Part shown: positions 11,476-49,920 of the stretch, piece by piece
Layout: each line of letters opens with the position of its first letter
Numbering within the stretch: the first letter of the stretch is position 1
Position numbers and translations under genes: made by a program
Assembly (NCBI RefSeq): GCF_900631615.1
Contig: NZ_LR131273.1
Coordinates: 3,938,850 to 4,002,849, forward strand
Source: Tsukamurella paurometabola
Lineage (GTDB): Bacteria; Actinomycetota; Actinomycetes; Mycobacteriales; Mycobacteriaceae
Length of the DNA stretch: 64,000 nucleotides
Direction of reading: 5' to 3'
The notes under the pieces: model-generated
Told to the model about the DNA's origin: nothing
Databases searched by the model: none
What the model saw: the letters and a program-made list of their open reading frames with translations, nothing else

Positions 11476-12078
11476 ATGTTCGTTCTCACCGCCGACCAGC
11501 GGGGCAGCCGCGCCGACATCGACCGCGTGGAGGCGGCCCACGCGCTGCTCGCACCGCTCGCGTGGCTCCGCGCGCCCGACCGTACGGCGGGCGACGAACT
11601 GCAGGCCGTCACGGACGAGGCCACCGTCGCCGTCGACGCCGCGCTCGCACTTCTCACCGATGGGCACTGGAGCGTCGGCCTCGGCGTGGGCCCCGTCGAG
11701 ACGCCACTCCCCGCCCAGACCCGCGCGGGGCGCGGCCGCGCCTACGAGGCGGCGCGGGAGGCGGTCGAGGCGGCGAAGAGCACGGCGGTCCCCGTGCAGG
11801 TCCGGGGGACCGACGGGGCCTCCGCCGCGCGCGCCGAGGCGATCCTGTCGGTGCTCGGCCTTATCGTGGGCCGCAGATCACGGGAGGGGCAGGAGGTGAC
11901 CGCCTTGTTGAACACGGGCATGTCGATCACGGCGGCGGCCGCGGAGCTCGGCATCTCGCGGCAGGCCGCGTCGCAGCGCGCCGCGGCGGCGGGCTGGTCA
12001 GTGGAGCCCGCGGGCCGGGCCCTCGCGGTGGACCTGCTGACCGAGGCGGACACGGCGAGCGCGGGGGCGGGCCGATGA
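11476..12078 (+). CDS. SatD-like protein with C-terminal helix-turn-helix
   Basis: A 200-residue protein I do not recognise with certainty. Residues 1-115 resemble the SatD pattern: an N-terminal strand (MFVLTADQRGSR), GDELQ near residue 39, a GLGVG strand near 68, and a helix beginning AYEAAREAVEAAK near 89. This is reminiscent of a nucleotidyl-cyclase-like fold. Residues 140-174 form a convincing helix-turn-helix (SITAAAAELGISRQAASQRA). Its stop overlaps the start of the membrane protein gene, so the two likely work together. It could be a DNA-binding sensor. Function unknown. Confidence 0.6.
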   Translation: MFVLTADQRGSRADIDRVEAAHALLAPLAWLRAPDRTAGDELQAVTDEATVAVDAALALLTDGHWSVGLGVGPVETPLPAQTRAGRGRAYEAAREAVEAAKSTAVPVQVRGTDGASAARAEAILSVLGLIVGRRSREGQEVTALLNTGMSITAAAAELGISRQAASQRAAAAGWSVEPAGRALAVDLLTEADTASAGAGR

Positions 12079-26607: not shown

Positions 26608-27669
26608 TCAGCTCTGGTGCTGCTGCGCCGGGGCGTACTGCTGCGGGGCGGGCGCCGCCTGCTGCGGGACGGGCTGGCCGACGACCTGGGGCAGCGCGAC
26701 GGTCTGCAGCACGCGGGTGATCGCCTGATCCGGAGTCACCTCGTCGGCGAGGGCGTCGTAGCTCATGACGAGGCGGTGGCGCAGGACGTCCGGGATGATC
26801 TCCACGACGTCCTGCGGCACCACGTAGTCGCGGCCGCGGAGCAGCGCGAGGGCGCGGGCGGCGGCGACGATGCCCAGGGTCGCGCGCGGCGAGGCGCCGT
26901 AGGTGATCCAGGAGGCGACGTCGTCGAGGCCGAACTCGCGCGGCGTGCGGGTCGCGGCGATGACCCGGACCACGTAGTCGACGAGGGCGTGGTGCACGAA
27001 GACCTCGCTCGCGGCGCGCTGCAGGCGCTGCACCGTCGCAGGGTCGAGGATCTGCGAGGGCACGGGCGGGACGGTGCCCATGCGGTAGACGATCTCCCGC
27101 TCCTCCTCGATCGACGGGTAGCCGACGACGACCTTGAACAGGAAGCGGTCGCGCTGCGCCTCGGGCAGCGGGTACACGCCCTCGTTCTCGATGGGGTTCT
27201 GGGTGGCGAGCACGAGGAACGGATCGGGCATCGGGTAGGTCTGCCCGCCGATCGACACCTTGCGCTCGGCCATGACCTCGAGCAGCGCGGACTGCACCTT
27301 CGCCGGAGCGCGGTTGATCTCGTCGGCGAGGAGGAAGTTCGCGGAGACCGGGCCGATCTCGGTGTCGAACTGCTCCTTGCCCTGGCGGTAGATGCGGGTA
27401 CCGACGAGGTCGGAGGGCACCAGGTCGGGAGTGAACTGGATGCGGGAGAAGGACCCGCCCACCACCGTCGCGAAGGTCTCGACCGCGAGGGTCTTGGCGA
27501 CGCCGGGAACGCCCTCCAGCAGCACGTGGCCCTTGGCGAGCATGCCGACCAGGATCCGCTCGACGAGCCGGTCCTGGCCCACGATCACGCGCTTGACCTC
27601 GTAGACCGCCCGTTCCAGCAGCTTGACCTCATCGCTCGAGGCGGTGTCCTGCACCTGTGAGTGCGTCAC
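26608..27669 (-). CDS. moxR1: MoxR-family AAA+ ATPase (Rv1479-like)
   Basis: A 353-residue AAA+ protein. Walker A is GVPGVAKT (53-60), Walker B FLLADEINRAP (about 111-121), and sensor 1 lies in LATQNP (about 152-157). The last 20 residues are a Gln/Pro/Ala-rich tail. It leads the MoxR-DUF58-VWA unit, which in M. tuberculosis is linked to ripA/ripB and stress survival. The GTG start is preceded by an AAGGGGA site. Confidence 0.94.
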   Translation of the reverse strand: MTHSQVQDTASSDEVKLLERAVYEVKRVIVGQDRLVERILVGMLAKGHVLLEGVPGVAKTLAVETFATVVGGSFSRIQFTPDLVPSDLVGTRIYRQGKEQFDTEIGPVSANFLLADEINRAPAKVQSALLEVMAERKVSIGGQTYPMPDPFLVLATQNPIENEGVYPLPEAQRDRFLFKVVVGYPSIEEEREIVYRMGTVPPVPSQILDPATVQRLQRAASEVFVHHALVDYVVRVIAATRTPREFGLDDVASWITYGASPRATLGIVAAARALALLRGRDYVVPQDVVEIIPDVLRHRLVMSYDALADEVTPDQAITRVLQTVALPQVVGQPVPQQAAPAPQQYAPAQQHQS

Positions 27670-35558: not shown

Positions 35559-35609
35559 GTTGCCCTCCGTGACAAATGAGTCTATCGGTGGAAAACTACA
35601 CCACTGAGG

Positions 35610-35624
35610 CGTGTGTTGCACACG
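35610..35624. promoter_or_regulatory. Dyad between the YdcF-like and SWIM genes
   Basis: CGTGTG and CACACG form a perfect 6-bp dyad with a 3-nt spacer in the 123-bp divergent region. It lies 58 bp before the SWIM gene start and 52 bp before the YdcF-like start. A minus-strand TAGACT (35579-35584) may be the -10 of the latter. Confidence 0.35.
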
Positions 35625-35681
35625 TGAATGCTCGATCGCGCACACTCCCCCACTTCACAGCCGATGTGCTTTAGTGGATCC

Positions 35682-36977
35682 GTGGGGGTGGAACGGTGGT
35701 CGCGGGAGCAGGTGCTCTCGCTCGCTCCGGACGCGGCGTCGGAGAAGGCGGGCACGAAACTCGGTGTCCCAGGCCCGTGGACGCTCACCGGCGCGACGGA
35801 TTCCGCCGTCTGGGGAAACTGCCAGGGCAGCGGGAAGCGGCCGTACCAGACCGTGGTCGAACTGGCCGGCCCCGCCTACAAGTGCTCCTGTCCGTCACGA
35901 AAGTTCCCGTGCAAGCACGCACTCGGGCTCCTGTTGCTCTGGGCGGACGCGACCGTGCCCGACGCGAGCGAGCCCGCGGACTTCGCTGCGGAATGGCTCG
36001 CCGCGCGGGACAGGCGACGGGAGGACTCCGCCGACCGCGCAGCGATTCCCCGTGATCCCGATCGTGCGGCCCGCACCGCCGCCCAGCGCTCCGAATCGGT
36101 CGCGGGTGGAGTCGCCGAGTTACGGTTGTGGCTGCTCGACCAGGTCCATTCGGGCCTCGCGGGCATCGACGCCTCCGTCTACGAACGCGTCGACCCGCTC
36201 GCCCGGCGCCTCGTCGACGCGAAGGCCCCGGGCCTCGCGGGCCGCGTGCGCGCGCTGTCGGCGGCGGTGGTGGGCCCCCGCTGGCCCGAGCGCATCGTCC
36301 AGGAGCTCGGCCTCCTGTGGCTACTCACGCGCGGCCACGACCGTCTCGACCAGCTCGACGGCCCCGTCGCCGCCGCCGTCCGCCGCCACGTCGGGTACCC
36401 CGTCGCCACCGCCGACGTGCTGGCGGGCCCCTCGGTAACCGACGACTGGACGGTACTGGGCACGTCCGAGAGCGAGGCCGATCGGATCACCACGCGGACC
36501 ACCTGGCTGCGTGCCGCGTCCTCGGGTCGATGGGCCTCGGTCCTCGACTTCAAGGCACCCGGCGGTCCGCCGCTTCCGCTGCGCCCACCGATCGGCACGA
36601 CGGTCCGCGCCGAGTTGGCGTTCTACCCGGACGGCCTCCGCGCCATCCCCCGCGGGGATCTCACTCCTACCGCCCCGGCACCGTCGACGGCACCGTCGGA
36701 CTGGGCGACGGCCCTCGCGGAGCGGGCGGCGCGCTGCGCGGACGACCCGTGGCACGGCAAGCATCCCGTTCTCGTCGCCGGGCGGCCGGCCACCGCACCG
36801 GAGCCGTGCCTGATCGATGCGCAGGGAACCGCCCTGCCCCTGACGATCAGCGCCCCCGCCTGGTGGATGCTCCTCGCGGGTTCCGGCGGCGCGTCGGTCA
36901 CCGTCGCCGGCCTCCTGGGGCCGGAAGCGCTCGAGCCGATGTCGATGATCGCCGGAGACGAGGTGCTGGCCCTGTGA
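35682..36977 (+). CDS. SWIM zinc-finger protein of the MoxR-VWA operon
   Basis: A 431-residue protein. The SWIM finger CxCx6CxH is Cys68, Cys70, Cys77 and His79 (KCSCPSRKFPCKH), a zinc module that binds DNA or protein. The rest is a mixed alpha/beta body with tryptophan-rich stretches (TTWLRAASSGRWASVLDFKAPG near 270) typical of SWIM proteins encoded beside MoxR/VWA genes. It heads a five-gene operon; its stop overlaps the DUF5691 start. The start is uncertain: GTG 35682 or 35688, or ATG 35664. Confidence 0.82.
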   Translation: MGVERWSREQVLSLAPDAASEKAGTKLGVPGPWTLTGATDSAVWGNCQGSGKRPYQTVVELAGPAYKCSCPSRKFPCKHALGLLLLWADATVPDASEPADFAAEWLAARDRRREDSADRAAIPRDPDRAARTAAQRSESVAGGVAELRLWLLDQVHSGLAGIDASVYERVDPLARRLVDAKAPGLAGRVRALSAAVVGPRWPERIVQELGLLWLLTRGHDRLDQLDGPVAAAVRRHVGYPVATADVLAGPSVTDDWTVLGTSESEADRITTRTTWLRAASSGRWASVLDFKAPGGPPLPLRPPIGTTVRAELAFYPDGLRAIPRGDLTPTAPAPSTAPSDWATALAERAARCADDPWHGKHPVLVAGRPATAPEPCLIDAQGTALPLTISAPAWWMLLAGSGGASVTVAGLLGPEALEPMSMIAGDEVLAL

Positions 36978-38314
36978 CGAACGCCGCCCCGCTCTGGCCG
37001 CAGGTCGTCTCCGCGGCACTGCTCGGTACCGCGACCAGGCCCGTCAGCACCGCCGGGGCCGACCCCGCGCTGGCGCCTCACCTCGGTGCCCTACCGGCCG
37101 ACACCCCACCCGCGGAACTGGTGCTCCACACCGCCGCGCTCACCGCTGTCGCGACGAACGCCCAGGGCCCGCTACCCGCGCCGGGCCCCGAACCGGTTCC
37201 CACCGCGGCACACGACCCCAGACCGCCGCTCTCGCCGCGCCTGGCGGCCGTCGTCCACGCCGCCCTGTCCCTGCCGGGCGCCGAACGGTGGTGCCTGGCA
37301 CCCGTCGCGGCATCCGGGCTGCGCAGCCCGGCGCGGCTGCTGCCCGACCTGTTGCTCTACACCGCCGATCGCCCCGAAGCCGGTCCCGCCGTCGCGGCCC
37401 TGACCGGGCCGCGGGGTGCCTGGCTGGCCCGGATCGCTCCGGACATCAAGGCCCGGCTCGGCACCGGGACGGGGGCGGGCCCGATGGACGACGGGATCGT
37501 GCCCGCACAGGCGGACTGGGACGCGCTACGCGCACCGGAGCGAGCACAGGTGCTGCAGGACCTGGGCCCCGTCACGCCTGGGAGCGACGCGGAGTCGCTG
37601 TGCGAGCGCGGACTCGACGATCGCACCGCCACGGTCCGCGCCGCAGCCGTCCGCGCCCTGAGCGGGTCGGCCGGCACCGCCTACGAGCGCCGCATGCGCT
37701 CGCGCGCATCGGCCGTGGTGCGCCGGCGCCGCACGCTGCGCGGCGAACGGATCGAGGTCGCCCCCGCCGATCCGCCCGATCCCGCAGCGGTGCGAGACGG
37801 GGTGGCGTGGCCTCCCCCGCAGGGCGTGTCGCCGACGGCGCAGTGGGTGGCGCAGCTGGCGACCGCGCTACCGCTCAGCGCCTGGGAGGAACTGCTCGAC
37901 GCCACTCCGGATCGGCTCGTCGGCGCCTCGGGCGACTACACCGCGGAGTTCAGGTCCGGGTGGCGCGAACGCACCGCCCGCGAGCGCGAACCGCGCTGGG
38001 CGGCGGCACTCGCGCAGAGCGGCGAACCCGCGGACCTCGCCCTGCTCCCCGGACCGTGGCCGGACACCCTGAGCGAGAGGGTGATCCGCGTCTTCGCCAC
38101 GATCGCGGCGTCCGACGATCGGCGCCCGCTTCCGCCGGGCGACAGCGCCCTCATCGCCGCCGCCGCCGAGCACCTTCCCGCCGCCACCGGGGCGCCCTGG
38201 CCGCAGCGCGTCGCGGACCTCGCCGCCCGAGGCACCACGTCGCGCACCCGGTACCTCGCACCGCTCGCCGAGATCCTCCGCCTCCGCACCGTCATCGAAG
38301 AGGAGCTGCCATGA
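36974..38314 (+). CDS. DUF5691 family protein
   Basis: A 446-residue, Ala/Pro-rich, probably helical-repeat protein that occurs with SWIM, MoxR and VWA genes. Visible features: LWPQVVSAALLGTATRP at the start, ERWCLAPVAASGLRSPARLLPDLL near 105, and ERGLDDRTATVRAAAVRALSG near 220, which reads like a HEAT repeat. GTG 36974 overlaps the SWIM stop (GTGA), and its stop overlaps the MoxR start (ATGA). It probably acts as a scaffold for the ATPase; this is inference. Confidence 0.78.
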   Translation: MTNAAPLWPQVVSAALLGTATRPVSTAGADPALAPHLGALPADTPPAELVLHTAALTAVATNAQGPLPAPGPEPVPTAAHDPRPPLSPRLAAVVHAALSLPGAERWCLAPVAASGLRSPARLLPDLLLYTADRPEAGPAVAALTGPRGAWLARIAPDIKARLGTGTGAGPMDDGIVPAQADWDALRAPERAQVLQDLGPVTPGSDAESLCERGLDDRTATVRAAAVRALSGSAGTAYERRMRSRASAVVRRRRTLRGERIEVAPADPPDPAAVRDGVAWPPPQGVSPTAQWVAQLATALPLSAWEELLDATPDRLVGASGDYTAEFRSGWRERTAREREPRWAAALAQSGEPADLALLPGPWPDTLSERVIRVFATIAASDDRRPLPPGDSALIAAAAEHLPAATGAPWPQRVADLAARGTTSRTRYLAPLAEILRLRTVIEEELP

Positions 38315-39399
38315 CCGACACCACCGACCTGCTGCGCCCGCACGCCGAGCAGGTCCACGCCGCCGAGCTCGCCGCGCTCGCCGCACAGGATCGGGGCATG
38401 CGACCGACGCGGTGGCGGCTATCACCAGCCGCGGTCGTCGACTACCTGTGCGGCACCACGCTGCCGGACGGGACGGTGATCGCGCCCAAGTACATCGGCC
38501 CGCGCCGCCTCATGGAGGTGGCGGTCGCGACCCTCGCGACGGATCGCGCCCTCCTGCTACTGGGAGTTCCGGGCACCGCCAAGACCTGGGTGTCCGAGCA
38601 TCTCGCCGCCGCCATCAGCGGCGATTCCACGCTGCTGGTGCAGGGGACGGCGGGCACCCCGGAGGAGGCCATCCGGTACGGATGGAACTACGCCCGCCTC
38701 ATCGCCGAGGGACCCAGCCGGGAGGCGCTGGTCGCGTCGCCGATCATGACCGCGATGGCCGAGGGGCGCGTCGCCCGCCTCGAAGAGCTCACGCGCATTC
38801 CGTCGGACGTCCAGGACGCGCTCATCACCGTCCTGTCCGAGAAGACGCTCCCCGTCCCGGAGCTCGGCATCGAGGTGCAGGCCGCGAAGGGCTTCACCCT
38901 CATCGCGACGGCGAACGACCGGGACCGGGGCGTCAACGAGCTGTCGTCCGCGCTGCGGCGGCGGTTCAACACCGTGGTGCTGCCGCTCCCCGCCACCGCC
39001 GACGACGAGGTCCGCATCGTCTCCGACCGGGTGGCCTCCCTCGGCAGGGCGCTCGACCTCCCGGAACTGCCGGCCGCCGCCGAGGAGATCCGCCGGGTGG
39101 TCACCGTGTTCCGCGAGCTCCGCTCGGGGGTCACCGAGGACGGTCGCACCAAGGTCAAGCAGCCCAGCGGCACCCTGTCGACGGCGGAGGCGATCTCGGT
39201 CCTCACCCACGGCACAGCGATGGCATCCCATTTCGGCGACGGCGTGCTGCGCCCGAGCGACGTGGCCGCGTCGATCCGCGGGGCGGTCGTCAAGGACCCC
39301 GTCTCGGACGCGGTGGCATGGACCGAGTACCTCGAGTCCGTGGTCCGGGAGCGGCCCGGCTGGTCGGACTTCTACCGCGCCGCACGGGACGCCGGATAG
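38311..39399 (+). CDS. MoxR-type AAA+ ATPase of the SWIM/VWA operon
   Basis: A 362-residue AAA+ protein distinct from the RipA-linked MoxR1. Walker A is GVPGTAKT (85-92). The Walker B region reads VARLEELTRIP (about 154-164), with Glu-Glu where most MoxR proteins have Asp-Glu. Sensor 1 is in IATAND (about 203), and the arginine finger in SSALRRRFN. It should remodel a client using the VWA protein as adaptor. Coupled upstream to DUF5691; DUF5682 starts 9 nt after its stop. Confidence 0.9.
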   Translation: MTDTTDLLRPHAEQVHAAELAALAAQDRGMRPTRWRLSPAAVVDYLCGTTLPDGTVIAPKYIGPRRLMEVAVATLATDRALLLLGVPGTAKTWVSEHLAAAISGDSTLLVQGTAGTPEEAIRYGWNYARLIAEGPSREALVASPIMTAMAEGRVARLEELTRIPSDVQDALITVLSEKTLPVPELGIEVQAAKGFTLIATANDRDRGVNELSSALRRRFNTVVLPLPATADDEVRIVSDRVASLGRALDLPELPAAAEEIRRVVTVFRELRSGVTEDGRTKVKQPSGTLSTAEAISVLTHGTAMASHFGDGVLRPSDVAASIRGAVVKDPVSDAVAWTEYLESVVRERPGWSDFYRAARDAG

Positions 39400-39408
39400 G
39401 CGCTCGCG

Positions 39409-41631
39409 GTGACCGCTGTCCACGTTCTGGGGGTCCGCCACCACGGCCCGGGGTCCGCCCGTGCGGTGGTGGCGGAGCTCGAGCGGCTGCGCCCCGAGGT
39501 CGTGCTGATCGAGGGGCCGGCGGACGCCACGGACCTCCTGCAGCACATCGCGGACCCCGGCCTGCAACCGCCTGTCGCGCTGCTCGGATACGCGGCCGAC
39601 GATCCCTCCACCTCCGCGTTCTGGCCCTTCGCCGTCTTCTCCCCCGAATGGCAGGCGGCGAGCTGGGCCGTCGCGCGCGGGGTTCCCGCGGAGTTCATCG
39701 ACCTGCCGGTCGCGCAGACGCTCGCGGACCGCGGCGAGAACGACGACCAGGACTCCGACGACCCCGTGCGCGCCGACCCGATCGCGGCCCTGGCGGCCGC
39801 CGCCGGGTACGACGACGCCGAACGGTGGTGGGACGACGTCATCGAATCCCGGGGCGAGTCCGACGTCTTCGGTTCCCTCGGCGGCGCCATGCGGGCGGTG
39901 CGCGAGGCAGTGGCTCCGGCCCCGCCGGGCAACTCTTCATCACCGTCGCGGGAGGAGCGGCGCGAAGCCCACATGCGTAAGTGCCTGCGCGCCGCCATGA
40001 AACGCGACGGTGTCGAGACGGTGGTCGTGATCTGCGGAGCGTGGCACGTACCGGCGCTCACCGGGACGCTGCCGAGTGCGGCCGCCGATGCCAAGGTCCT
40101 CGCCGGTGCGCCGAAGGTGAAATCCCGTGCCGCGTGGGTGCCGTGGACCCATTCGCGGCTGTCCTCGGCCTCCGGCTACGGGGCCGGCGTCACCTCGCCG
40201 GGGTGGTACCACCACCTGTTCACCACCGAGCCGGACGAGGTGGTGGTGCGGTGGCTGACGGGCGTCGCCGAGCTCCTGCGCTCCGAGGACGTCGCCGTCT
40301 CGTCGGCGCACATCATCGAGGCGACCAGACTCGCGGAGACGCTCGCCGCGCTGCGCAGGCGGCCGTTGGCGGGCCTCTCGGAGGTGGAGGAGGCCACGTT
40401 GGCCGTGCTCTGCGACGGTTCCACGGAGCGCGCGGATCTGGTCCGGAGACGGGCCGTGGTCGGCGAGCGGCTCGGCACCGTCCCCGAGGATCTCCCGGTC
40501 GTCCCGCTCCAGGCGGACATCGACCGCACGGCGCGCTCGCTCCGGTTCAAGCCGTCCCCGGCCGTCAAACAGATCGTCCTGGACCTGCGCAAACCCGGCG
40601 ACGTCGAACGCTCGCGGCTCTTGCACCGCCTACGGCTGCTCGGCGTGGAATGGGGCGAGCCCGCGGAGACCAGCGGCAAGGGCACGTTCAAGGAGGGCTG
40701 GGCGGTCCAGTGGCGGCCCGAGCTTTCGGTCGACGTCGTGGTCGCCTCCGTGTGGGGGACCACCGTGCCGGTGGCCGCGACGCGCAGACTCGCGGCCACC
40801 GCCGAGGAGGCGACCTCTCTCGCCGAGGTGACGTCCGCGCTCGAGGCGGCGCTGCTGGCGGATCTTCCGGACGCCGTATCGGTGCTGCTCCACGCCATCG
40901 AGAACCGTGCCGCCGTCGCCCACGACGTCGACGCGCTGATGGCGGCGCTGCCGGCGTTGGGCCGTACTCAGCGCTACGGCGACACCCGCGGCACCGACAC
41001 CGGGGCGCTCGCCGACGTCGCGGCGGGACTGCTGCTACGCGTGTGCATCGGCCTGCCGGCGGCGGTCACCGGCCTGGGTGAGGATGCCGCGGTCCGGCTC
41101 GTACAGCGGGTGGACGCGGTCGAGGACACCGTCGGGCTGCTCACCGAGGGTGACCGCGAGCGGTGGTACGGCGCGCTGCGCGTCGTCGCGGACCGGCCGG
41201 ACGTGCACGGCTCCCTCGTGGGCCGGGTGACCCGTCTCCTCCTCGACGCGGGGCTTCTCGACGGTGCCGACGCCGCGGTCCGCCTGCACCGTGCCCTCTC
41301 CTCCGGGGTTCCCCCGGACGCGAAGGCCGCCTGGATCGCGGGATTCCTCGGACGCAGCGGCATCGTGCTGGTGCACGACCCCGCCGTGCTGGGGGTGCTC
41401 GACGAGTGGCTGGTGGGGCTGGGCGAGCAGGAGTTCATCGACGTGCTCCCCCTTCTGCGGCGAACCTTCGCCGAGTTCGATCCCGGCGTGCGGCGCAACA
41501 TCGGCGACCGCATCGGCAGGATCGAAGGCGGGCGCACCGACGCGGAGACCAGGAGTTTCGACGCCGAGCTCACGGGCGCCGCCCTCGCGACCGCCGCGCG
41601 GTTGCTCGGCATCGCGGAGGGGGCGACATGA
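39409..41631 (+). CDS. DUF5682 protein with Tiki/TraB/EreA-like motifs
   Basis: A 740-residue protein. The N-terminal 220 residues carry the hallmarks of the Tiki/TraB/EreA superfamily of metal-dependent hydrolases: a first GxxH at 8-11 (GVRHHGPGS), a following Glu35 (LIEGP), an R-rich helix (REERREAHMRKCL, about 181) and a second GxxH at 210-213 (CGAWHVPA). The remaining 500 residues are helical and of unknown role. It lies between the MoxR ATPase and VWA genes and overlaps the latter (ATGA). If the motifs are right, it is the enzymatic effector of the operon. GTG start. Confidence 0.75.
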   Translation: MTAVHVLGVRHHGPGSARAVVAELERLRPEVVLIEGPADATDLLQHIADPGLQPPVALLGYAADDPSTSAFWPFAVFSPEWQAASWAVARGVPAEFIDLPVAQTLADRGENDDQDSDDPVRADPIAALAAAAGYDDAERWWDDVIESRGESDVFGSLGGAMRAVREAVAPAPPGNSSSPSREERREAHMRKCLRAAMKRDGVETVVVICGAWHVPALTGTLPSAAADAKVLAGAPKVKSRAAWVPWTHSRLSSASGYGAGVTSPGWYHHLFTTEPDEVVVRWLTGVAELLRSEDVAVSSAHIIEATRLAETLAALRRRPLAGLSEVEEATLAVLCDGSTERADLVRRRAVVGERLGTVPEDLPVVPLQADIDRTARSLRFKPSPAVKQIVLDLRKPGDVERSRLLHRLRLLGVEWGEPAETSGKGTFKEGWAVQWRPELSVDVVVASVWGTTVPVAATRRLAATAEEATSLAEVTSALEAALLADLPDAVSVLLHAIENRAAVAHDVDALMAALPALGRTQRYGDTRGTDTGALADVAAGLLLRVCIGLPAAVTGLGEDAAVRLVQRVDAVEDTVGLLTEGDRERWYGALRVVADRPDVHGSLVGRVTRLLLDAGLLDGADAAVRLHRALSSGVPPDAKAAWIAGFLGRSGIVLVHDPAVLGVLDEWLVGLGEQEFIDVLPLLRRTFAEFDPGVRRNIGDRIGRIEGGRTDAETRSFDAELTGAALATAARLLGIAEGAT

Positions 41632-42773
41632 CGGAACGGGATCGCCGGTGGCGTCTGCTGCTCGGCGGCGCGGCGGACGGTCTGCCGGCGCTGACGAGCG
41701 CCGATGCGGGGATCGACAAGGCACTGGCCTCGCTGTACGACGGCGCGGGCAAACGCGGTGCGGGCCTCGGCACGTCGGCGCCGTCGGTGGTGCGGTGGCT
41801 CGGTGACATCCGGGGGTACTTCCCCTCGTCCGTGGTCCAGGTGATGCAGCACGATGCGGTCGAGCGCCTGGGGCTGCACCAGCTGCTCCTGGAGCCCGAA
41901 CTGATGGAGGCGGTGGAGCCGAACATCGAACTCGTCACCACGCTCATCTCACTCGGACGGGCGATCCCCGAGACCTCCAAGGCCACGGCACGATCGGTGG
42001 TGCGGCGGGTGGTCGACGAGGTCGAGCGGCGGATCGCCGACCGGACGCGGGCGACGGTCACCGGAGCCCTCAACCGGGCGTCCCGGACCCACCGGCCGCG
42101 GCTGCGCGACGTCGACTGGAATCGCACCATCGCGGCGAACCTGAAGAACTACCTGCCCGAGCACCGGACCGTCGTCCCGGAACGCCTCATCGGGTACGGC
42201 CGCCGATCGCAGTCCGTGTCGAAGGACATCGTGCTGGCGATCGACCAGTCCGGGTCGATGGCCGCTTCCGTCGTGTACTCCGCGGTGTTCGGGGCCGTGC
42301 TCGCCACGATGAGGTCCGTGCGGACGTCGCTGGTGGTCTTCGACACCGAAGTGGTGGACCTGACGGATCAGCTCGACGACCCGGTGGATGTCCTGTTCGG
42401 TACGCAACTCGGCGGCGGCACCGACATCAACCGCGCGATCGCGTACTGCCAAAGCCTGATCACTCGCCCGCAGGACAGCATCTTCGTGCTGATCTCCGAC
42501 CTGTACGAGGGCGGCGTGCGGGACGAGATGCTGACCCGCGTCGCCCAGTTGCAGGCGGCGGGCGTGCAGGTGGTGGTGCTCCTCGCGCTGTCGGACGAGG
42601 GCGCACCGTCGTTCGACCGCGACATCGCGGCGGCGTTGGCGGGCATGGGGATCCCCGCGTTCGCCTGCACCCCGGACGCCTTCCCCGACCTCCTCGCCGT
42701 GGCGCTGAGCCGTGGCGACATCGTGGGCTGGGCCGACCGTACCGAGCTCAGCAAACGCGGAATGGGCGATTGA
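41628..42773 (+). CDS. VWA-domain protein of the SWIM/MoxR operon
   Basis: A 381-residue soluble protein. The N-terminal helical part (1-195) contains LGTSAPSVVRWLGDIRGYFP near 47. The VWA domain has a complete MIDAS: Asp206-x-Ser208-x-Ser210 (DQSGS), Thr265 (GGGTD) and Asp291 (ISDLYEGG). No signal or membrane segment is seen, unlike the Rv1481-type VWA in this window. It closes the five-gene operon and likely presents substrates to the MoxR ATPase in a metal-dependent way. Its start overlaps the DUF5682 stop. Confidence 0.88.
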   Translation: MTERDRRWRLLLGGAADGLPALTSADAGIDKALASLYDGAGKRGAGLGTSAPSVVRWLGDIRGYFPSSVVQVMQHDAVERLGLHQLLLEPELMEAVEPNIELVTTLISLGRAIPETSKATARSVVRRVVDEVERRIADRTRATVTGALNRASRTHRPRLRDVDWNRTIAANLKNYLPEHRTVVPERLIGYGRRSQSVSKDIVLAIDQSGSMAASVVYSAVFGAVLATMRSVRTSLVVFDTEVVDLTDQLDDPVDVLFGTQLGGGTDINRAIAYCQSLITRPQDSIFVLISDLYEGGVRDEMLTRVAQLQAAGVQVVVLLALSDEGAPSFDRDIAAALAGMGIPAFACTPDAFPDLLAVALSRGDIVGWADRTELSKRGMGD

Positions 42774-42816
42774 CGACACCGCGCACCGGGACATCGCCCG
42801 GGCGCACCGCCACCGG

Positions 42817-43023
42817 TCAGTCGGGCTTGATCTCCCAGCTGTCCTGGCCGTCCATCGGCCCCACCTTCACGGTGAGCGTGCCGGTGGCACCGTTGGAACC
42901 GGTCGCCTTGCAAGGGAACTCCTTGCCGGGCTCAAGAGCTTTGAGACCCGCAGTCCAGGGTCACCTTGCCGTCACCGGGAGCAGAGCGACGACCACCGCG
43001 ATTCCGACATTCCTCATCTTCAT
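42817..43023 (-). pseudogene. Broken small secreted protein (DUF4333-like)
   Basis: Three reading frames on the minus strand together spell a small exported protein. MKMRNVGIAVVVALLPVTA (from 43023) is a signal peptide but hits a stop at 42961. A second frame gives GDGKVTLDCG, and a third gives ALEPGKEFPCKATG ... TLTVKVGPMDGQDSWEIKPD before the stop at 42817. The paired cysteines and closing strands recall DUF4333 lipoproteins. Two frameshifts, and probably a lost middle part, make it inactive unless the sequence has errors. The rest of the gap between the VWA and GDPD genes shows nothing further. Confidence 0.6.
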
Positions 43024-43082
43024 GAATCTGCACTGTAGCGGATTCGGCAAACGGTTCGAACTCGCCGACTCCGTAGCCGCGG

Positions 43083-44114
43083 TCAGGACGCCGCGGGGAG
43101 CGCGATCCCGAGTTCTCGGAGCACGACGCGCGCACGATCCGGATAGTCGGTGATGAGCCCGTCGACACCGTCGTCGATCAACGCCCGCATCGTCGCGGGA
43201 TCGTTCACCGTCCACGGGATGACCTTCAGGCCGAGGTCGTGCGCACGCCGGATCAGCGCGGCGGTCGTGAACCGCGCGAAACCCGGGTCGCCGATCCCGC
43301 CGTCCTGCGGATCGCCCTGCACCGGCGAGATCGCGGTCAGGCCGGGGATCGTCGCCTGGGCGGCCCGCACCCAGTCACCGCCGAAGGCGTCGACGTCGAG
43401 GCCGAGCCACGGCGAGGCTCCCGACTTCCCGGTCTGCAGGAACTGCTCGCCGTTGGTGAGCGCGATCAGCTCCACGCCCGGCAGCAGCGGTCCGATCTCC
43501 CGTAGGGCCGTCCAGTCGAAGCTCTGGATCGTCACCTGTCCGGCGAGACCCGAGCGGGTGATCTCCCCCGCCACGGCGCGCACGAACTCGCCGCGCGGTG
43601 CCGTCTCCGACGGTGCCCCCGCCTCCACCTTGGTCTCGATGTTCATCCGCACCGGCGAACGGCGCACGCGAACGAGGTCGAAGAGCTCGTGCAGCTGCGG
43701 CATCCGTGCGCCGTCGACCGCCCTCTGCGTGGCGTTGACCTTCTCGTAGCCGCAGTTCATGGTGCGGATCTGCGCGTAGGTGAGGTCGCGGACGTACTTG
43801 CCGACGTACGGGTACTGCGGGTCGCCGGCCGTCGCGGGCGCGGTGTCGGCACACTTCTTCGGGTCGACCTTCCGGTCGTGCGTTATCACGACCTTCCGGT
43901 CCCTCGTCACCTGCGTGTCCAGCTCCAGCGTGGTCACGCCGAGCCGCATCGCGGCGGAGAAGCCCTCCAGCGTCGACTCCGTCTGCAGGCCGAGCCCTCC
44001 CCGGTGCGCCTGCAGGTCGACGGTCCGTGGCGCAGCTCCGGTCGGCGCCGCCGGCAGGGCGCCCACCAGCAGCGCGAGGCACAGCGAGACGACGGCGACG
44101 CGGCGCGGAATCAT
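43083..44114 (-). CDS. Secreted glycerophosphodiester phosphodiesterase
   Basis: A 343-residue exported GDPD enzyme that hydrolyses glycerophosphodiesters to glycerol-3-phosphate. The signal peptide is residues 1-27 (ends AAP). Catalytic signatures are the AHRGG loop (about 35), TTLELDTQVTRDRKVVITHD (about 60-79) with the metal-binding Glu/Asp and second His, and the C-terminal VIPWTVNDP and GLITDYPD. The ATG at 44114 follows TAGCGT by seven bases, a probable leaderless start. It diverges from the Jet operon. Confidence 0.92.
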   Translation of the reverse strand: MIPRRVAVVSLCLALLVGALPAAPTGAAPRTVDLQAHRGGLGLQTESTLEGFSAAMRLGVTTLELDTQVTRDRKVVITHDRKVDPKKCADTAPATAGDPQYPYVGKYVRDLTYAQIRTMNCGYEKVNATQRAVDGARMPQLHELFDLVRVRRSPVRMNIETKVEAGAPSETAPRGEFVRAVAGEITRSGLAGQVTIQSFDWTALREIGPLLPGVELIALTNGEQFLQTGKSGASPWLGLDVDAFGGDWVRAAQATIPGLTAISPVQGDPQDGGIGDPGFARFTTAALIRRAHDLGLKVIPWTVNDPATMRALIDDGVDGLITDYPDRARVVLRELGIALPAAS

Positions 44115-44267: not shown

Positions 44268-45770
44268 ATGGCGCAGTCGGCCGCGCAGCTGTACGCCGCG
44301 TTCACGGACAACGCCGACAACGACGTCGCGCTCCGTCTCCTCCGCTCCCCCAACGCGGTCGCCTACCTGGCGCTGATGGCCGCCCGGCTGGGTACCGGCC
44401 CCGTCGACGCGGAGGAATTGGCCGACGCGCTCACCGCCGACCTGCAGTCCCTTGCACACCACTTCACCGAGCGCGCGCGGCCGGTCCCCGCCGGACCGGA
44501 CGTCCTCGACAGCTGGGTCAAGGCGGGGTACGTCTCACGCACCCTCGACGAGGACGATCGGGAAACCATCCAGCTCACCCGCGGCGCGACGACGGCCCTC
44601 GGCCAGGTGCAGGCCGTGTCGCTGGACCGCAACGTCGCCACCGAGACCGCGCTGGAACTGGTCACAGCACGACTGTCCGCGGTCGCCGTCACCGTCAGCT
44701 CCGACCCCGACGACCACCTGCGTGCCCTCGACGAGCAGATCGCCGAGCTCACCCGCCGCCGCGAGGCCCTGCGCGCCGGCTTGGTCCCCGAGTACGACCG
44801 CGACAAGGTGGTCGACGACCTCAAGATCGTCAGCTCGCTCGCCGAGCGGATGCCGGCCGACATCCTCGGCTACGGCGAGAAGCTCCGCGAGCACACGCGC
44901 GCCCTCCTCACGCACGGCCTGGACGCCTCCGACTCCACAGAGGCCGAGGCCTACGCGAAGACCCTGCAGCGTCTCTTCGACGGCCACGACGAGCTCGCGA
45001 ACACCCCCGAGGGCAAGGCCTTCGACGCCTTCTACACGCTGCTCTCCGACCACCGCCTGCGCCGCCAGCTCGAGACCTCCGTCGCTGCGGTGGTCACCGA
45101 GGTCGCCCTGCCCGACGACCTGCGCGACTCCCTCACCGGCTTCCTCGACCGCATGTGGATGCAGGTCCAGCGCGTCGACGAGATCCGCGGGCAGGTCTAT
45201 CGGCGCATCAACACGTTCGTCAAGGACGGCGACTTCCTGCAGTACCAGTCGCTGCGTGCCCGGATCACCGAGGCGCAGCGCGCGGCGGTCGACGCCTTCG
45301 ACGCCGTGCCTGCCGGGCGCGACACGGGCCTCGCCGTCCCCATGTCGGCCGTCGACACCAGCTCCGTCGGCGCCCTGCGGTTCCACGACGGCGTCGTGAC
45401 TCTGCCGCCCGAGGTGCGCGAGACCTCGGGCGAGTTCACCATCGACCCGGCCCGCCTCGTCGGCCGGGAGGCGATCGACTGGGACGCCCTCGCCTCCGCG
45501 ATCAACCATCAGGTCAGTGCGTTCGACGCTGCGACCCTCTCCGAGGTCCTCGAGGCCATCGGCGCGCCGCGCGCCGGCGACGTCGTCGGGGTCTGGTCGC
45601 TCGGCGCGCGGTACGGCACCGTCGACGCCGACCGCCCGGTCACCGTCGTCGCGCACACGGCCCGCGGGCCCCGCGAACTGACGGTGCCGCACGTGGAGTT
45701 CGCCGCCGCGCTCCCGCCCCTGACCCCCGCCTCGGCCGCGCCCGAGCCGACCACCCTGTTCGAGGAGTGA
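44268..45770 (+). CDS. jetA: Wadjet JetA / MksF-like kleisin (DUF3375)
   Basis: A 500-residue DUF3375 protein, the kleisin subunit of the Wadjet/MksBEF condensin-like complex that recognises and loop-extrudes small circular DNA. The N-terminal winged-helix part begins SAAQLYAAFTDNADNDVALRLLRS. The middle is coiled-coil (DEQIAELTRRREALRAG near 155), and the C-terminus holds a second winged-helix part. A GGGAGG site precedes the ATG, and TACACT (44232-44237) may be the -10. jetB follows after 2 nt. Confidence 0.9.
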   Translation: MAQSAAQLYAAFTDNADNDVALRLLRSPNAVAYLALMAARLGTGPVDAEELADALTADLQSLAHHFTERARPVPAGPDVLDSWVKAGYVSRTLDEDDRETIQLTRGATTALGQVQAVSLDRNVATETALELVTARLSAVAVTVSSDPDDHLRALDEQIAELTRRREALRAGLVPEYDRDKVVDDLKIVSSLAERMPADILGYGEKLREHTRALLTHGLDASDSTEAEAYAKTLQRLFDGHDELANTPEGKAFDAFYTLLSDHRLRRQLETSVAAVVTEVALPDDLRDSLTGFLDRMWMQVQRVDEIRGQVYRRINTFVKDGDFLQYQSLRARITEAQRAAVDAFDAVPAGRDTGLAVPMSAVDTSSVGALRFHDGVVTLPPEVRETSGEFTIDPARLVGREAIDWDALASAINHQVSAFDAATLSEVLEAIGAPRAGDVVGVWSLGARYGTVDADRPVTVVAHTARGPRELTVPHVEFAAALPPLTPASAAPEPTTLFEE

Positions 45771-45772
45771 GT

Positions 45773-46567
45773 GTGACCGACGAGACCGTGGACGACTCCC
45801 TGGACATCGCCGCCGGCGAGGCCCTGCCCGAGATCGACCTCGCGGACTTCAGCATCGCCGATGACGACGCCGTGAAGTCGCTGCGCGGCGCCGACACCGC
45901 GCCCCGCTTCGACGGCGACACCTCCGCGCTGCCGAACTCGGTCTGCTACGCCCTGCAGGAGCTGATCGCGGCGCCGCACGTCTCGGCCAAGTCCAAGAAC
46001 TGGGCCGTCATCGAGGCCGAGGAGACGCTGCTGCGCAGCCGGCTCTCCGAACTGAACCTGCTGCTGGAGATCAACCGCGAGACCAAGCACGCCTTCACCC
46101 GCCAGGTCAGCGAGAACGACCCCCGCCAGCGGAACCTGCTCCGCGCCCAGAGTCTCTCGCTCGCCGCCTCCGTGCTCGCACTGTTCCTGCGCCTCAAGCA
46201 CCTGTCCAGCCCGGACGAGACGGCGGTCGTCGAGCGCCAGGAGATGATCGACCATCTCCTCACCTTCCGCCCCGCCCGCGACACCGACGAGGCCGGCTTC
46301 ATCAAGAAGGCCGACGCCGCGATCAACCAGCTGGAGACCCGCCGGCTGATCCGCCGGGTGGGCACCAGCGACCGGTACGCCGTGCACGCGGTGATCGCCT
46401 CCCTGCTCACCCCCGAGCAGGTGGACCTGTACACCGCCGCCTACCGCGACCTCGCCAGTACCGACCAGGACCTCGGAGAGGCGGCGGCGCCCGTCGACGG
46501 GGCGGATGACCAGGACGGCGAGGACGCCACCGTCGAACCCGAGAACGAGACGCAGGAGCCCCAGTGA
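45773..46567 (+). CDS. jetB: Wadjet JetB / MksE-like KITE protein (DUF4194)
   Basis: A 264-residue DUF4194 protein, the winged-helix (KITE) subunit that binds the kleisin JetA. An acidic N-terminal region (1-45) is followed by the core with LRSRLSELNLLLEINRETKHAF and LLRAQSLSLAASVLALFLRLKHL (about 84-145), and an acidic tail. GTG 45773 has a GGAG site ten bases upstream; its stop overlaps the jetC start (GTGA). Confidence 0.88.
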   Translation: MTDETVDDSLDIAAGEALPEIDLADFSIADDDAVKSLRGADTAPRFDGDTSALPNSVCYALQELIAAPHVSAKSKNWAVIEAEETLLRSRLSELNLLLEINRETKHAFTRQVSENDPRQRNLLRAQSLSLAASVLALFLRLKHLSSPDETAVVERQEMIDHLLTFRPARDTDEAGFIKKADAAINQLETRRLIRRVGTSDRYAVHAVIASLLTPEQVDLYTAAYRDLASTDQDLGEAAAPVDGADDQDGEDATVEPENETQEPQ

Positions 46568-49500
46568 CCCGCAAGCATCTCGGCCAGTACCGCCTCACCC
46601 GCCTGCAGGTGGTCAACTGGGGCACGTTCGACGGTTACAAGGACTTCCCGATCGATGAGCGGGGCGTGATCCTCACGGGACCGTCGGGCTCGGGCAAGAG
46701 TTCGCTCATGGACGCGCACTCGGTGGTGCTGCTGCCCACCTACGACCAGTCCTTCAACGCGTCCGCCGACATGACGGCGAAGGGCGCCAAGCGCGCCGCC
46801 CGCTCCCTGGCGGACTACGTCCGCGGCGCGTGGTCGGTCAACGACGACGAGCACCAGCAGTCCAAGGTGCAGTACCTGCGCGGGGATTCGGCCACGTGGT
46901 CGGCGGTCGCCGCGACCTACGACAACGGCGCGGGCAACGTCACGACGGCCGTCGCCGTGAAGTGGTTCCCGGGCAGCGGCACGGACGGCGCCTCGCTCAA
47001 ATCCTGGTACCAGATCCACTCCGGCGCCTTCGATCTCCTGGATCTGCAGGAGTGGGCGACCGCCGGCTTCGACACCCGGGGCTGGCGATCGCGGCACAGC
47101 GGCGTCGAGTCCTTCGACACGCAGGCCGCGTACCAGGACGCGCTCCGCCGCCGCGTCGGTATCGGTACGTCCTCAGCAGCGCTCGCGCTGCTCGGCAAGG
47201 CCAAGGCGATGAAGAACGTCGGCGACCTCGACGCCTTCATCCGCACGTACATGCTGGACCGGCCGCAGACCTACGCCCGCGCCGAGCGCCTCGTGGAGAA
47301 CTTCACCCAGCTCGACGAGGCGTACCGGGCCGCGGCACGCGCGGAAGCGCAGGAGAAGGTCCTGCGGCCCATGCCGGAGGCCTACGAGACGTACCGCTCC
47401 GCCACCGTCGGGACCACCCGCGCTGCGGACCTGCTCGGCGCGCCCGTGCGGTCCTACCTGCGCGGGCACAAGCTGCGCCTGCTGCAGGAGCAGATGGACC
47501 GCATCGAGGGCGAGCGCGCCGGCATGGACGCGCAGATCGCCCACTGGGAGGACCGGGCCGAGGAGCGCAAGATGCGCTACAACGACCTGCTGCACCGGCT
47601 CCGGCAGGAGCAGGGCGAGGTCGGCGTCCTCGAGGCCGAGCTCCAGTCCCGCGAGCTCCAGACCCAGGCCCGCCAACGCGCCTACGAGCGCTTCGCCGCC
47701 GCCGTCGAGAAGCTCGGCGAGCGGGCGCCGGAGTCGGCGGAGGAGTTCGCCGCGCTGCGCGAACAGGTCCCCGGTATCCGCGACCGCGCCACCGAGGCCG
47801 CCGAGGCACTCGCCGCGCGCGTGCACTCCGCGTACACGGACGAGTCGGACGCGCGCCGCGCCGTCGAGGCCGTCGACGACGAGCTCTCCGTCCTGGATCG
47901 CCGGGCCTCGCTGCTGCCGCCCGCTCTGCTCGACCAGCGCGACGTGATCGCCCGCGCCACCGGGGTTCCCGCCGAGGAGCTGCCGTACGCGGCGGAGCTG
48001 ATCGACGTCGAGCCCGCGGAGCAGGCGACGTGGGCGGGCGCCGCCGAACGCGTCCTGCGGCCGCTGGCCACGACGCTGCTCGTGCCCGCCGAGCACCAGC
48101 GCGCGGTCGCCGACTACGTCAACGCCAACCGCGTCCACGGCGTGCTCACCTACCAGGTGGTCGACGGTGCCGACCCCACCCGCCCGGAGCCCGGGTCGCT
48201 GGCCGCCAAGCTCACGGTCGATACGTCGACCGCGGCCGGACGCTGGCTGGCGGGCGCGGTCGCCCGCGCCGCCCGGCACACCTGCGTGGACTCCCCCGCC
48301 GAACTGGAGAAGCACGAGCAGGCCGTGACCCCGGAGGGACTGGTCAAGAACGCGGGCGGCCGGTTCCGCAAGGACGATCGCCGCGCCGTCGCCGACCGTT
48401 CGCAGTGGGTGCTCGGCACCAACACCGGCAGCAAGCGCGAAGCCCTGCAGCGCCGTCGCGACGAACTGGCGGCGGTGCACGCCAAGGCCGCCGAGGCGTC
48501 CGCGACGCTGCGCGACGACCTCGCCGAGCACAAGGCGGTCGCGGACAGCGCGGCCGGGGTGCTGGGTTACACGTCGTGGGCCGAACTCGACCACTGGGCG
48601 GCGAAGGCCGAGGCCGAGGAGCTGGCCGATCGGATCTCCGACGCCCGTTCCGGCAACGCGAACCTCGGAGAGCTCGAGCTCCAGGCCGACAACGCGTACG
48701 GCGAACTGGCCGAGGCGCAGACCCGGATCGGTGCGCTCACGGAGACCATGAACCGCGCCGGGACCGAGTTCGACGATCTCCTCGCCGAGTTCGAGAAGAT
48801 CGACGCCGAGAGCGCGCCGAAGCTCACCGAGGAGGACGAGGACTTCCTGGCGACCGCGCTGTGGCACCTGCTCACCGGAGATGAGCCGCGCCGCCTGACG
48901 CTGGAGAACTTCGGCGAGGTCCGCGCCGACCTCCGCGCCGAGTTGGAGCGCCAGCAGGCGGCGGCCACCGCGGAACGGGACGCGGCCGAGGCGCGGATAG
49001 TGCGCACCGCGGAGCAGTTCCTGCGTGAGTGGCCCGACGCCTCGACCGAGCTGTCCGCCGATGTGGCGTCCGCCCCGGACTTCGTCGCCGTGCACGAGAA
49101 CCTCGTCGCGCACGGGCTGGCTGCTGCGACGGAGAAGTTCCGGCGGCTCATCACGACCGACGTCAGCCACTCGGTGTCGAACCTGTTCAAGGAGGTCGAC
49201 GACACGCACCGCGCGATCACCCGCGGTATCGCCGACGTCAACGCGGGCCTGCGCCGGGTGGAGTTCAACGAGGGCACCTACCTGCAGATCGCCTACGCCG
49301 CCCGGCCGACACCGGAGGCACAGGAGTTCGCGAAACTCGTCGACGAGATGGTTCGCGACGCCCCCGCCGCGAAGCGGGCGGAACCCGCGGCGATGGCCGC
49401 GCAGTTCAAACGGATCCGCGGCCTGGTGCTGCGGCTCACCGGCGACGACCCCGAATCGCGACGCTGGACGGAGAACGTCCTCGACGTCCGCACCGGATAC

Positions 49501-49920
49501 TCGTTCTACGGCCGCGAGAACGCCGTCGGCGCAGAGCCGGACGCCCCCGCGGTGGTCACCTACCGCAACACCGCGACCAACTCGGGCGGCGAGCAGGAGA
49601 AGCTGGTCGCCTTCTGCCTGGCGGCGGCACTGAGCTTCGCCCTCGGCAGCCACGGGATCGACGGATCGAACGAGCCGGCGTTCGCGCCGCTCATGCTCGA
49701 CGAGGCGTTCAGCAAATCCGACGAGCGGTTCTCCGCACAGTCGCTGCGGGCCTTCGAGCAGTTCGGCTTCCAGCTCATCATCGCCGCGCCGATCCGCATG
49801 GTCGGCATCGTGGAGCCCTTCATCGGGCAGGTGATCCTGGTGGACAAGCAGGTCACGCCCGACGGTGCCCGCTCGGACGCCCGGTACGCCACGTTCGGCG
49901 AGCTGACCCCGTCGCGCTGA
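46564..49920 (+). CDS. jetC: Wadjet JetC / MksB-like SMC ATPase
   Basis: A 1118-residue SMC/SbcC-type ATPase. Walker A is GPSGSGKSS (39-47). Long coiled coils occupy about 290-420 and 610-830 around a hinge-like region (about 450-560). The ABC signature is TNSGGEQEK (about 1005), and Walker B is in PLMLDEAFSKSDERF (about 1042-1056). It is the motor of the Jet complex. The gene after it is a convergent AraC regulator, so no jetD (TOPRIM nuclease) follows, which is unusual for a Wadjet operon. Confidence 0.92.
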   Translation: MTRKHLGQYRLTRLQVVNWGTFDGYKDFPIDERGVILTGPSGSGKSSLMDAHSVVLLPTYDQSFNASADMTAKGAKRAARSLADYVRGAWSVNDDEHQQSKVQYLRGDSATWSAVAATYDNGAGNVTTAVAVKWFPGSGTDGASLKSWYQIHSGAFDLLDLQEWATAGFDTRGWRSRHSGVESFDTQAAYQDALRRRVGIGTSSAALALLGKAKAMKNVGDLDAFIRTYMLDRPQTYARAERLVENFTQLDEAYRAAARAEAQEKVLRPMPEAYETYRSATVGTTRAADLLGAPVRSYLRGHKLRLLQEQMDRIEGERAGMDAQIAHWEDRAEERKMRYNDLLHRLRQEQGEVGVLEAELQSRELQTQARQRAYERFAAAVEKLGERAPESAEEFAALREQVPGIRDRATEAAEALAARVHSAYTDESDARRAVEAVDDELSVLDRRASLLPPALLDQRDVIARATGVPAEELPYAAELIDVEPAEQATWAGAAERVLRPLATTLLVPAEHQRAVADYVNANRVHGVLTYQVVDGADPTRPEPGSLAAKLTVDTSTAAGRWLAGAVARAARHTCVDSPAELEKHEQAVTPEGLVKNAGGRFRKDDRRAVADRSQWVLGTNTGSKREALQRRRDELAAVHAKAAEASATLRDDLAEHKAVADSAAGVLGYTSWAELDHWAAKAEAEELADRISDARSGNANLGELELQADNAYGELAEAQTRIGALTETMNRAGTEFDDLLAEFEKIDAESAPKLTEEDEDFLATALWHLLTGDEPRRLTLENFGEVRADLRAELERQQAAATAERDAAEARIVRTAEQFLREWPDASTELSADVASAPDFVAVHENLVAHGLAAATEKFRRLITTDVSHSVSNLFKEVDDTHRAITRGIADVNAGLRRVEFNEGTYLQIAYAARPTPEAQEFAKLVDEMVRDAPAAKRAEPAAMAAQFKRIRGLVLRLTGDDPESRRWTENVLDVRTGYSFYGRENAVGAEPDAPAVVTYRNTATNSGGEQEKLVAFCLAAALSFALGSHGIDGSNEPAFAPLMLDEAFSKSDERFSAQSLRAFEQFGFQLIIAAPIRMVGIVEPFIGQVILVDKQVTPDGARSDARYATFGELTPSR

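Follow-up and report, generated by a model that had tools for sequence, protein, structure and literature searches.

A conserved five-gene MoxR–VWA operon with a DUF5682 protein, and signs in its relatives of a link to DNA damage

What might five genes do together when they encode a SWIM zinc-finger protein, a DUF5691 protein, a MoxR-type AAA+ ATPase, a DUF5682 protein and a von Willebrand factor A (VWA) protein, and follow one another almost without a gap? The question is raised by an operon within a 64,000-nucleotide stretch of the Tsukamurella paurometabola genome (contig NZ_LR131273.1, positions 3,938,850 to 4,002,849 of the forward strand; hereafter the window), which the original prediction, made from the letters alone, had presented as an undescribed sensor–remodeller–effector ATPase system. 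Coordinates, reading frames and Pfam families of all five genes were confirmed (Table 1), every protein scoring above its respective Pfam cut-off. The junctions were likewise as described: a GTGA overlap between the SWIM and DUF5691 genes, ATGA between DUF5691 and MoxR, a 9-nt gap (39400–39408) between MoxR and DUF5682, and ATGA between DUF5682 and VWA. The operon MoxR is indeed separate from the other MoxR of the window, a gene of its own at 26608–27669. Read from the translations, the CxCx6CxH motif of the SWIM protein lies at about nt 35883–35918, the Walker A motif GVPGTAKT of MoxR at about nt 38563–38586 and the metal ion-dependent adhesion site (MIDAS) DQSGS of the VWA protein at about nt 42243–42257; the SWIM ligands C68, C70, C77 and H79 are invariant across 35 aligned homologues. 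Our best reading is a DNA-damage-linked system with a possibly hydrolytic DUF5682 subunit, acting by a mechanism that we infer.

The five families form one system, a conserved unit, as shown by their joint occurrence and constant order in most of the relatives examined. Among 121 related genomes, 30 encode DUF5682 and 21 carry DUF5691 over its cut-off; all 21 also carry DUF5682, and none of the 91 genomes without DUF5682 passes the DUF5691 cut-off, one scoring below it. A scan of a genome collection gave at least 538 confirmed DUF5682 relatives, of which the best 80, by selection the most window-like, were kept. All five genes occur in the order and strand of the window in 59 of these, from six phyla (actinobacteria, cyanobacteria, Chloroflexi, a planctomycete, Bacteroidota and Thiofilum); the co-occurrence implied by a five-part system was thus borne out. 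In eight others SWIM–DUF5691 is divergent to MoxR–DUF5682–VWA, and the remaining 13, some of which lie at contig ends, hold fewer genes. The same order is seen on annotated Deinococcus and Rhizobium plasmids, except that in Deinococcus a small gene is inserted between MoxR and DUF5682. Four-nucleotide overlaps recur at SWIM/DUF5691 (30/68 pairs), DUF5691/MoxR (47/69), MoxR/DUF5682 (36/75) and DUF5682/VWA (35/75), counted with the in-frame start nearest the upstream stop, a choice biased towards overlaps; in 12 of the 68 SWIM/DUF5691 pairs the two share one open reading frame (ORF). When the 758 ORFs flanking the 80 loci were grouped into clusters, without family-model annotation, no sixth partner common to all emerged, the largest family being found at 14 loci. 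Around Streptomyces-type loci, shared neighbours turn up at as many as 13 loci, with sucC, sucD and pcrA read by eye nearby.

A survey of 33 longer loci, with class names coined here, separated the constant from the exchangeable parts. The five-gene class accounts for 18 complete loci and one more cut by its contig. Five loci carry a DUF5682::VWA fusion, each with a SWIM-motif ORF directly downstream; three combine a DUF4132 neighbour with a SWIM-motif ORF; and six have the order VWA–MoxR–DUF5682, where a search for a SWIM-motif ORF came up empty. In all, 26 of the 33 loci showed a SWIM protein, and DUF5682 accompanies MoxR and VWA in these 33. On a Sinorhizobium conjugative plasmid, a DUF4132 protein with a WGR domain, known as a DNA-break-binding domain in PARPs, is encoded between DUF5682 and VWA, followed by SWIM. 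On a Streptomyces plasmid, DUF4132 and a 1639-aa protein precede MoxR, and a SWIM-like protein (16.5 bits, under the cut-off of 19.6) follows the DUF5682 gene. From this range of architectures, MoxR–DUF5682–VWA is the common core, and SWIM together with one large partner, DUF5691 or DUF4132/WGR, is the variable part. The DUF5682::VWA and SWIM::DUF5691 fusions point to physical partnership and suggest DUF5682–VWA and SWIM–DUF5691 contacts. We also considered whether SWIM and DUF5691 are remote homologues of YehQ and DUF4132 and rejected the idea: hhalign on shallow alignments (6 YehQ-like and 7 DUF4132-like sequences) matched the zinc-finger motif alone, with no detectable homology between DUF5691 and DUF4132.

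The core has a cousin in Escherichia coli, where yehL, yehM and yehP encode MoxR, DUF5682 and VWA in this order, together with a SWIM protein. By blastp, the window proteins share 39% (MoxR), 29% (DUF5682) and 36% (VWA) identity with their E. coli counterparts over the aligned parts. The E. coli control genome, in contrast, has no DUF5691 match, and its SWIM gene, yehQ, comes last and resembles that of the window only in the zinc-finger motif; the K-12 row reads yehF (WGR), yehH (pseudogene), yehI (DUF4132), yehL, yehM, yehP, yehQ. With MoxR beside DUF5682 and VWA, plus a SWIM gene, the window system appears to be of the YehL type, YehL being one of seven MoxR subfamilies that the available text of PMC3893208 credits to a 2006 review. 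"Undescribed" was therefore too strong for the core. The parts of the set are partly known, and no known function was found for it. Our literature search, with most subscription papers outside it, returned no paper with DUF5682, DUF5691 or their Pfam accessions, and none on the operon by title under the yeh gene names. The partly available sources that do touch these genes list yehM among those mutated in copper-evolved E. coli (PMC12409786), yehQ among genes that a butanol study cloned and deleted, and yehP among predicted CRP targets. Of 5426 complete E. coli genomes, 5284 contain a match to yehM, which reaches at least 80% cover in 5166. One multi-stress study reportedly mentions yehQ as well (PMC9501238). 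The set is found in several phyla and its core in nearly all E. coli, yet it is uncharacterised.

In Deinococcus radiodurans, DUF4132 and WGR genes are strongly raised on depletion of DdrO, according to the part of PMC8533742 at hand, which led us to scan our loci for two damage motifs. Of 91 loci with a SWIM match, 90 had enough upstream DNA, giving 87 distinct upstreams (77 actinobacterial, 10 other), of which 170 nt were scanned on the sense strand (set A3 is A2 minus the E. coli row). The only motifs tried were the LexA box and TGTCRGTG-N8-TAnnnT, which we take to be the PafBC-type promoter. A LexA (SOS) box was rejected, not being enriched (0.227 vs 0.222 per kb). The PafBC-type site, by contrast, was perfect in 18 of the 77 distinct actinobacterial SWIM upstreams and present with at most one mismatch in 37. 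Spacers of 4–7 and 9–12, eight controls in all, gave no perfect site and 0–5 sites within one mismatch; with five permuted motifs no site came that close, and the background had 38 such pieces out of 15,917. Because PafBC is an actinobacterial regulator, the non-actinobacterial SWIM upstreams could serve as a further control, and none of the 10 came within two mismatches. Counted from the inferred gene start, 27 of the 37 sites begin between −32 and −55 and the other 10 between −68 and −84. At least 14 named genera are represented among the holders. The regulator and its −26 motif are treated in PMC11804915, available in part.

A perfect site on the SWIM side is paired with a one-mismatch site on the MoxR side in 11 of 12 divergent Streptomyces-type loci (L089, L112, L116, L121, L124, L128, L129, L134, L136, L137 and L140); for the remaining locus, L125, only one of the scans showed the SWIM-side site. 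Of four actinobacterial DUF4132 loci, the one on the Streptomyces plasmid (L186) shows a perfect site, 107 nt ahead of the DUF4132 gene; L055 shows one with a single mismatch immediately upstream of its ORF; in L063 a perfect site falls within the longest ORF call; and L056 has no PafBC-type site. For Streptomyces venezuelae, Stratton et al. 2022 (PMC9380542, available in part) wrote that, judging from an initial search, the PafBC motif of M. smegmatis seems not to be conserved. The Streptomyces sites bear on this open question and suggest, as a sequence-based prediction, a PafBC-type regulon in Streptomyces. Two observations on the motif lie outside the operon: L189 and L198 (positions 733592 and 2656725 of the window's own genome) have very similar 406-aa ORFs, each starting 28 nt after the start of a perfect site, and a further perfect site occupies window positions 11846–11867 (genome 3950695), with no clear target gene seen.

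Taking these promoters together with the conserved core, we give about an even chance to the view that the operon encodes one ATP-driven MoxR–VWA remodelling machine that, in many relatives, is part of the DNA-damage response. The same promoters, along with the hydrolase-like motifs of DUF5682, would also be expected of a complex that DNA damage switches on for growth arrest or cell death, with DUF5682 attacking a cell component. The system is found, however, in nearly all E. coli genomes, and we regard this outcome as very improbable.

Several observations weigh against a link to DNA damage. Two or more mismatches separate 40 of the 77 actinobacterial upstreams from the motif, and matches with at most one mismatch also occur on the antisense strand in 9 of 77 and inside the gene in 4 of 76; divergent loci carry their MoxR-side sites on the antisense strand, and the nine antisense matches are a count over all loci together. 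The window operon and those of three congeners lack a PafBC-type site (best match 3 mismatches in the window, 4 in the others), and the window upstream has a position-specific scoring matrix score of −2.9, inside the background (median −5.1, 95% at 3.3). The motif nonetheless serves elsewhere in the window genome, with 19 perfect matches vs 0 for the backward control, several of them preceding genes read by eye as uvrA, uvrB, recQ, sbcD and a tag-like glycosylase. The operon in this genus has therefore lost PafBC control or never had it, and its expression is driven differently. In the DNA covered, the five fused-class loci all lack a site ahead of the operon (some first genes lie near locus ends), and of the six VWA-first loci only L058 has a site, which lies about 2 kb from VWA on its upstream side. 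The E. coli yeh region contains no sense PafBC-type site within one mismatch, and the promoter-based damage link concerns actinobacteria. The DdrO-responsive Deinococcus genes are considered here as individual genes. Finally, the loci are related and their counts not independent, so that no p-value can be read as though they were. The damage link, new relative to the original prediction, would thus rest on the promoters of relatives and not on the window's own. It turns a "function unknown" into a directly testable idea.

Table 1. Genes of the operon and the region expected to hold its promoter (window positions)
Feature	Coordinates	Strand	Evidence
SWIM zinc-finger protein, 431 aa	35682..36977	+	open frame, Pfam SWIM 26.3 bits
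DUF5691 protein, 446 aa	36974..38314	+	open frame, Pfam DUF5691 204.5 bits
MoxR-type AAA+ ATPase, 362 aa	38311..39399	+	open frame, Pfam AAA_5 131.9 bits
DUF5682 protein, 740 aa	39409..41631	+	open frame, Pfam DUF5682 870.3 bits
VWA protein of CoxE type, 381 aa	41628..42773	+	open frame, Pfam VWA_CoxE 181.5 bits
SWIM upstream region, as far as the divergent YdcF-like gene, expected place of the operon promoter	35559..35681	+	best PafBC-type match: 3 mismatches, at −99

How would such a machine work? In the published model of MoxR–VWA pairs, a client is bound by the VWA domain and reshaped with ATP (PMC7159879 and PMC3893208, in their available parts). Of the sensor–remodeller–effector arrangement first proposed, the MoxR–VWA remodeller fits both the sequences and this general model, and the fusions suggest partnership. 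MoxR would form a hexamer, and the VWA protein would hold the client through its MIDAS and pass the motion of the ATPase on to it. SWIM and its large partner may recognise the client, or the DNA site where the client sits, and DUF5682, with its invariant His and Glu residues in an N-terminal alpha/beta domain, may cleave a bond by hydrolysis, either in the client or in a small ligand. The clients, the weakest step, would likely be proteins stuck on damaged DNA, or damaged complexes. Given a damage-type promoter in many relatives and WGR in the second class, a machine that locates a protein at damaged DNA and reshapes or cuts it is the simplest joint reading. Only tentatively, and with less confidence than in the general view above, do we extend it to a widespread, unnamed damage-response machine that clears or processes proteins at damaged DNA, with a MoxR–VWA engine, a TIKI-like hydrolase in DUF5682 and exchangeable recognition subunits (SWIM with DUF5691 or DUF4132/WGR), under PafBC control in many actinobacteria and with yehLMPQ as its E. 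coli form.

The hydrolytic role assigned to DUF5682 was examined at the level of residues and fold. DUF5682 consists of an N-terminal alpha/beta domain followed by a helical-repeat C-terminal part. The invariants of the N-terminal domain are H11, H12, E35, E80, D98, R185, E186 and H213, of which H11, H12, E35, R185, E186 and H213 are identical in 26 of 26 DUF5682 proteins, and an AlphaFold model (predicted local distance difference test 87.7) places the conserved residues on or beside the strands and a helix of one alpha/beta domain. In a mapping made by eye, DUF5682 may share with the TIKI/erythromycin-esterase/TraB superfamily a His motif following the first strand, a Glu on the second strand, a segment of the form R[E/D]xxM and an xxH motif that comes late. 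The first Glu of the two-His/two-Glu set of that superfamily is a Val in the window protein by this mapping. DUF5682 did not emerge as a known hydrolase by sequence. Profile searches against PDB gave no significant match (best E 0.65 and 0.07); hhalign against 13 erythromycin-esterase homologues gave a probability of 0.2%, with shallow alignments (effective number of sequences 3–4); TraB (PF01963) had no matches in 41 relatives; and E. coli YbaP, used as a bridge to solved TraB structures, led to nothing significant. The 50 rows shown for VIA-align named no ChaN, Ere or TIKI entry, 49 of them matching from residue 364 on. That DUF5682 is possibly a hydrolase is thus an idea drawn from its motifs.

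A different use of the same engine is housekeeping maturation, in the manner of CoxD–CoxE or RavA–ViaA, where MoxR and VWA would insert a metal or assemble an enzyme and DUF5682 would be the client enzyme rather than a subunit. Those pairs, like the window system, join a MoxR ATPase to a VWA partner, and the window VWA belongs to the CoxE family. MoxR proteins are believed to assist in the maturation of certain complexes (PMC3893208, available text), DUF5682 stands beside MoxR and VWA throughout the 33 surveyed loci and is fused to VWA in five, and the copper-evolution mutation of yehM would fit a metal-related role. CoxD–CoxE and RavA–ViaA, however, have reported clients (PMC3893208 and PMC7159879, as far as available), whereas the window system adds three more conserved proteins and, for many relatives, a promoter of the damage type. 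Maturation alone predicts neither the SWIM and DUF5691/DUF4132 partners nor such a promoter, and the largest flank family reaches only 14 of 80 loci, although an enzyme partner could be nearby among flanks clustered without annotation. We consider this explanation unlikely.

We then compared how fast the parts change. Over pairs of the 86 five-gene loci, identity falls in the order MoxR > VWA > DUF5682 > SWIM > DUF5691: for the 1765 pairs with MoxR 75–80% identical, median identity is 0.68 for VWA, 0.54 for DUF5682, 0.43 for SWIM and 0.34 for DUF5691, and in closer MoxR bins (90–95% and above) SWIM and DUF5691 swap places or tie. Between the window and its congener L039, the ratio of nonsynonymous to synonymous substitution rates (dN/dS) is ~0.06 for MoxR, 0.12 for VWA, 0.23 for DUF5682, 0.32 for SWIM and 0.54 for DUF5691, with dS at 0.6–1.0, near saturation. 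By these comparisons the MoxR–VWA engine is conserved, and the putative recognition subunits change fast. The window DUF5691 gene (36974–38314) encodes a protein only 46% identical to that of L039, whose MoxR is 93% identical. This falls under the median (0.71) at such a MoxR distance and may be due to fast evolution or to recombinational replacement.

Within the genus, the system is present in 4 of 16 genomes, at one site. In 10 of the 12 genomes without it, the flanking YdcF-like and GDPD genes lie 0.13–2.1 kb apart, and in G004 about 125 bp replace window positions 35631–43086; the GDPD gene was not found at the site in the non-holders G006 and G007, nor in the holder G011. Holders are scattered across the flank tree, in which some nodes are weak. 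Operon dS is similar to or above flank dS (0.61–0.97 vs 0.45–0.60 for L039; 0.56–0.75 vs 0.37–0.76 for L048), so transfer is possible, and the patchy presence could reflect either repeated loss of an old resident or transfer by flank recombination. In L048 (from G014, an 83% complete assembly) the operon genes are split over several frames, through sequencing errors or decay.

Patchiness of this kind, the possibility of transfer and the fast divergence of SWIM and DUF5691 are also what a conflict system against phages or plasmids might show, as the original prediction had raised. MoxR–VWA would then set a threshold, SWIM and DUF5691 would sense the invader, DUF5682 would be the effector, and a damage promoter would only arm the system. 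MoxR-vWA ternary conflict systems have been proposed (with VMAP, iSTAND, FtsH or beta-propeller; PMC7159879, available part) and share MoxR, VWA and a third conserved protein with the window operon, but here the third component is DUF5682. The bpMoxR domain, expected of a MoxR-vWA-beta-propeller system, scores 25.0 bits in the window MoxR, under the Pfam cut-off of 27, and the word YehL is absent from that paper. DUF5682 relatives were present in 36 of 72,556 plasmid records, some of them chromosome-sized. Against this, a PADLOC-DB 2.0.0 search (E ≤ 0.01) returned two marginal MoxR matches (13.5 and 13.2 bits) and none for the other four proteins, no relative was confirmed in a pattern scan of viral contigs, and 50,697 phage records held a single match. 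Moreover, yehM is near-core in E. coli, and the same neighbours recur around the Streptomyces-type loci. The conflict explanation received little support from these results; we judge it unlikely, and weaker than the link to DNA damage.

A defence island around the operon was likewise rejected, as PADLOC gave nothing above noise and the neighbouring Wadjet-like genes are core in the genus: the adjacent JetC is found in 16 of 16 genomes and is therefore no marker of an island. Of the defence genes, JetA and JetC models were the ones applied to the flanks of relatives, and they match only the window. The neighbouring row itself is a Wadjet/Mks-like jetA–jetB–jetC set at 44268–49920; by eye, no JetD-like frame comes right after JetC, so this is perhaps a condensin-like MksBEF set rather than an active Wadjet. 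Between it and the operon, a short stretch at 42817–42972 is kept in congeners without the operon (L147, L151 and L153), which places the operon edge between that stretch and the VWA gene.

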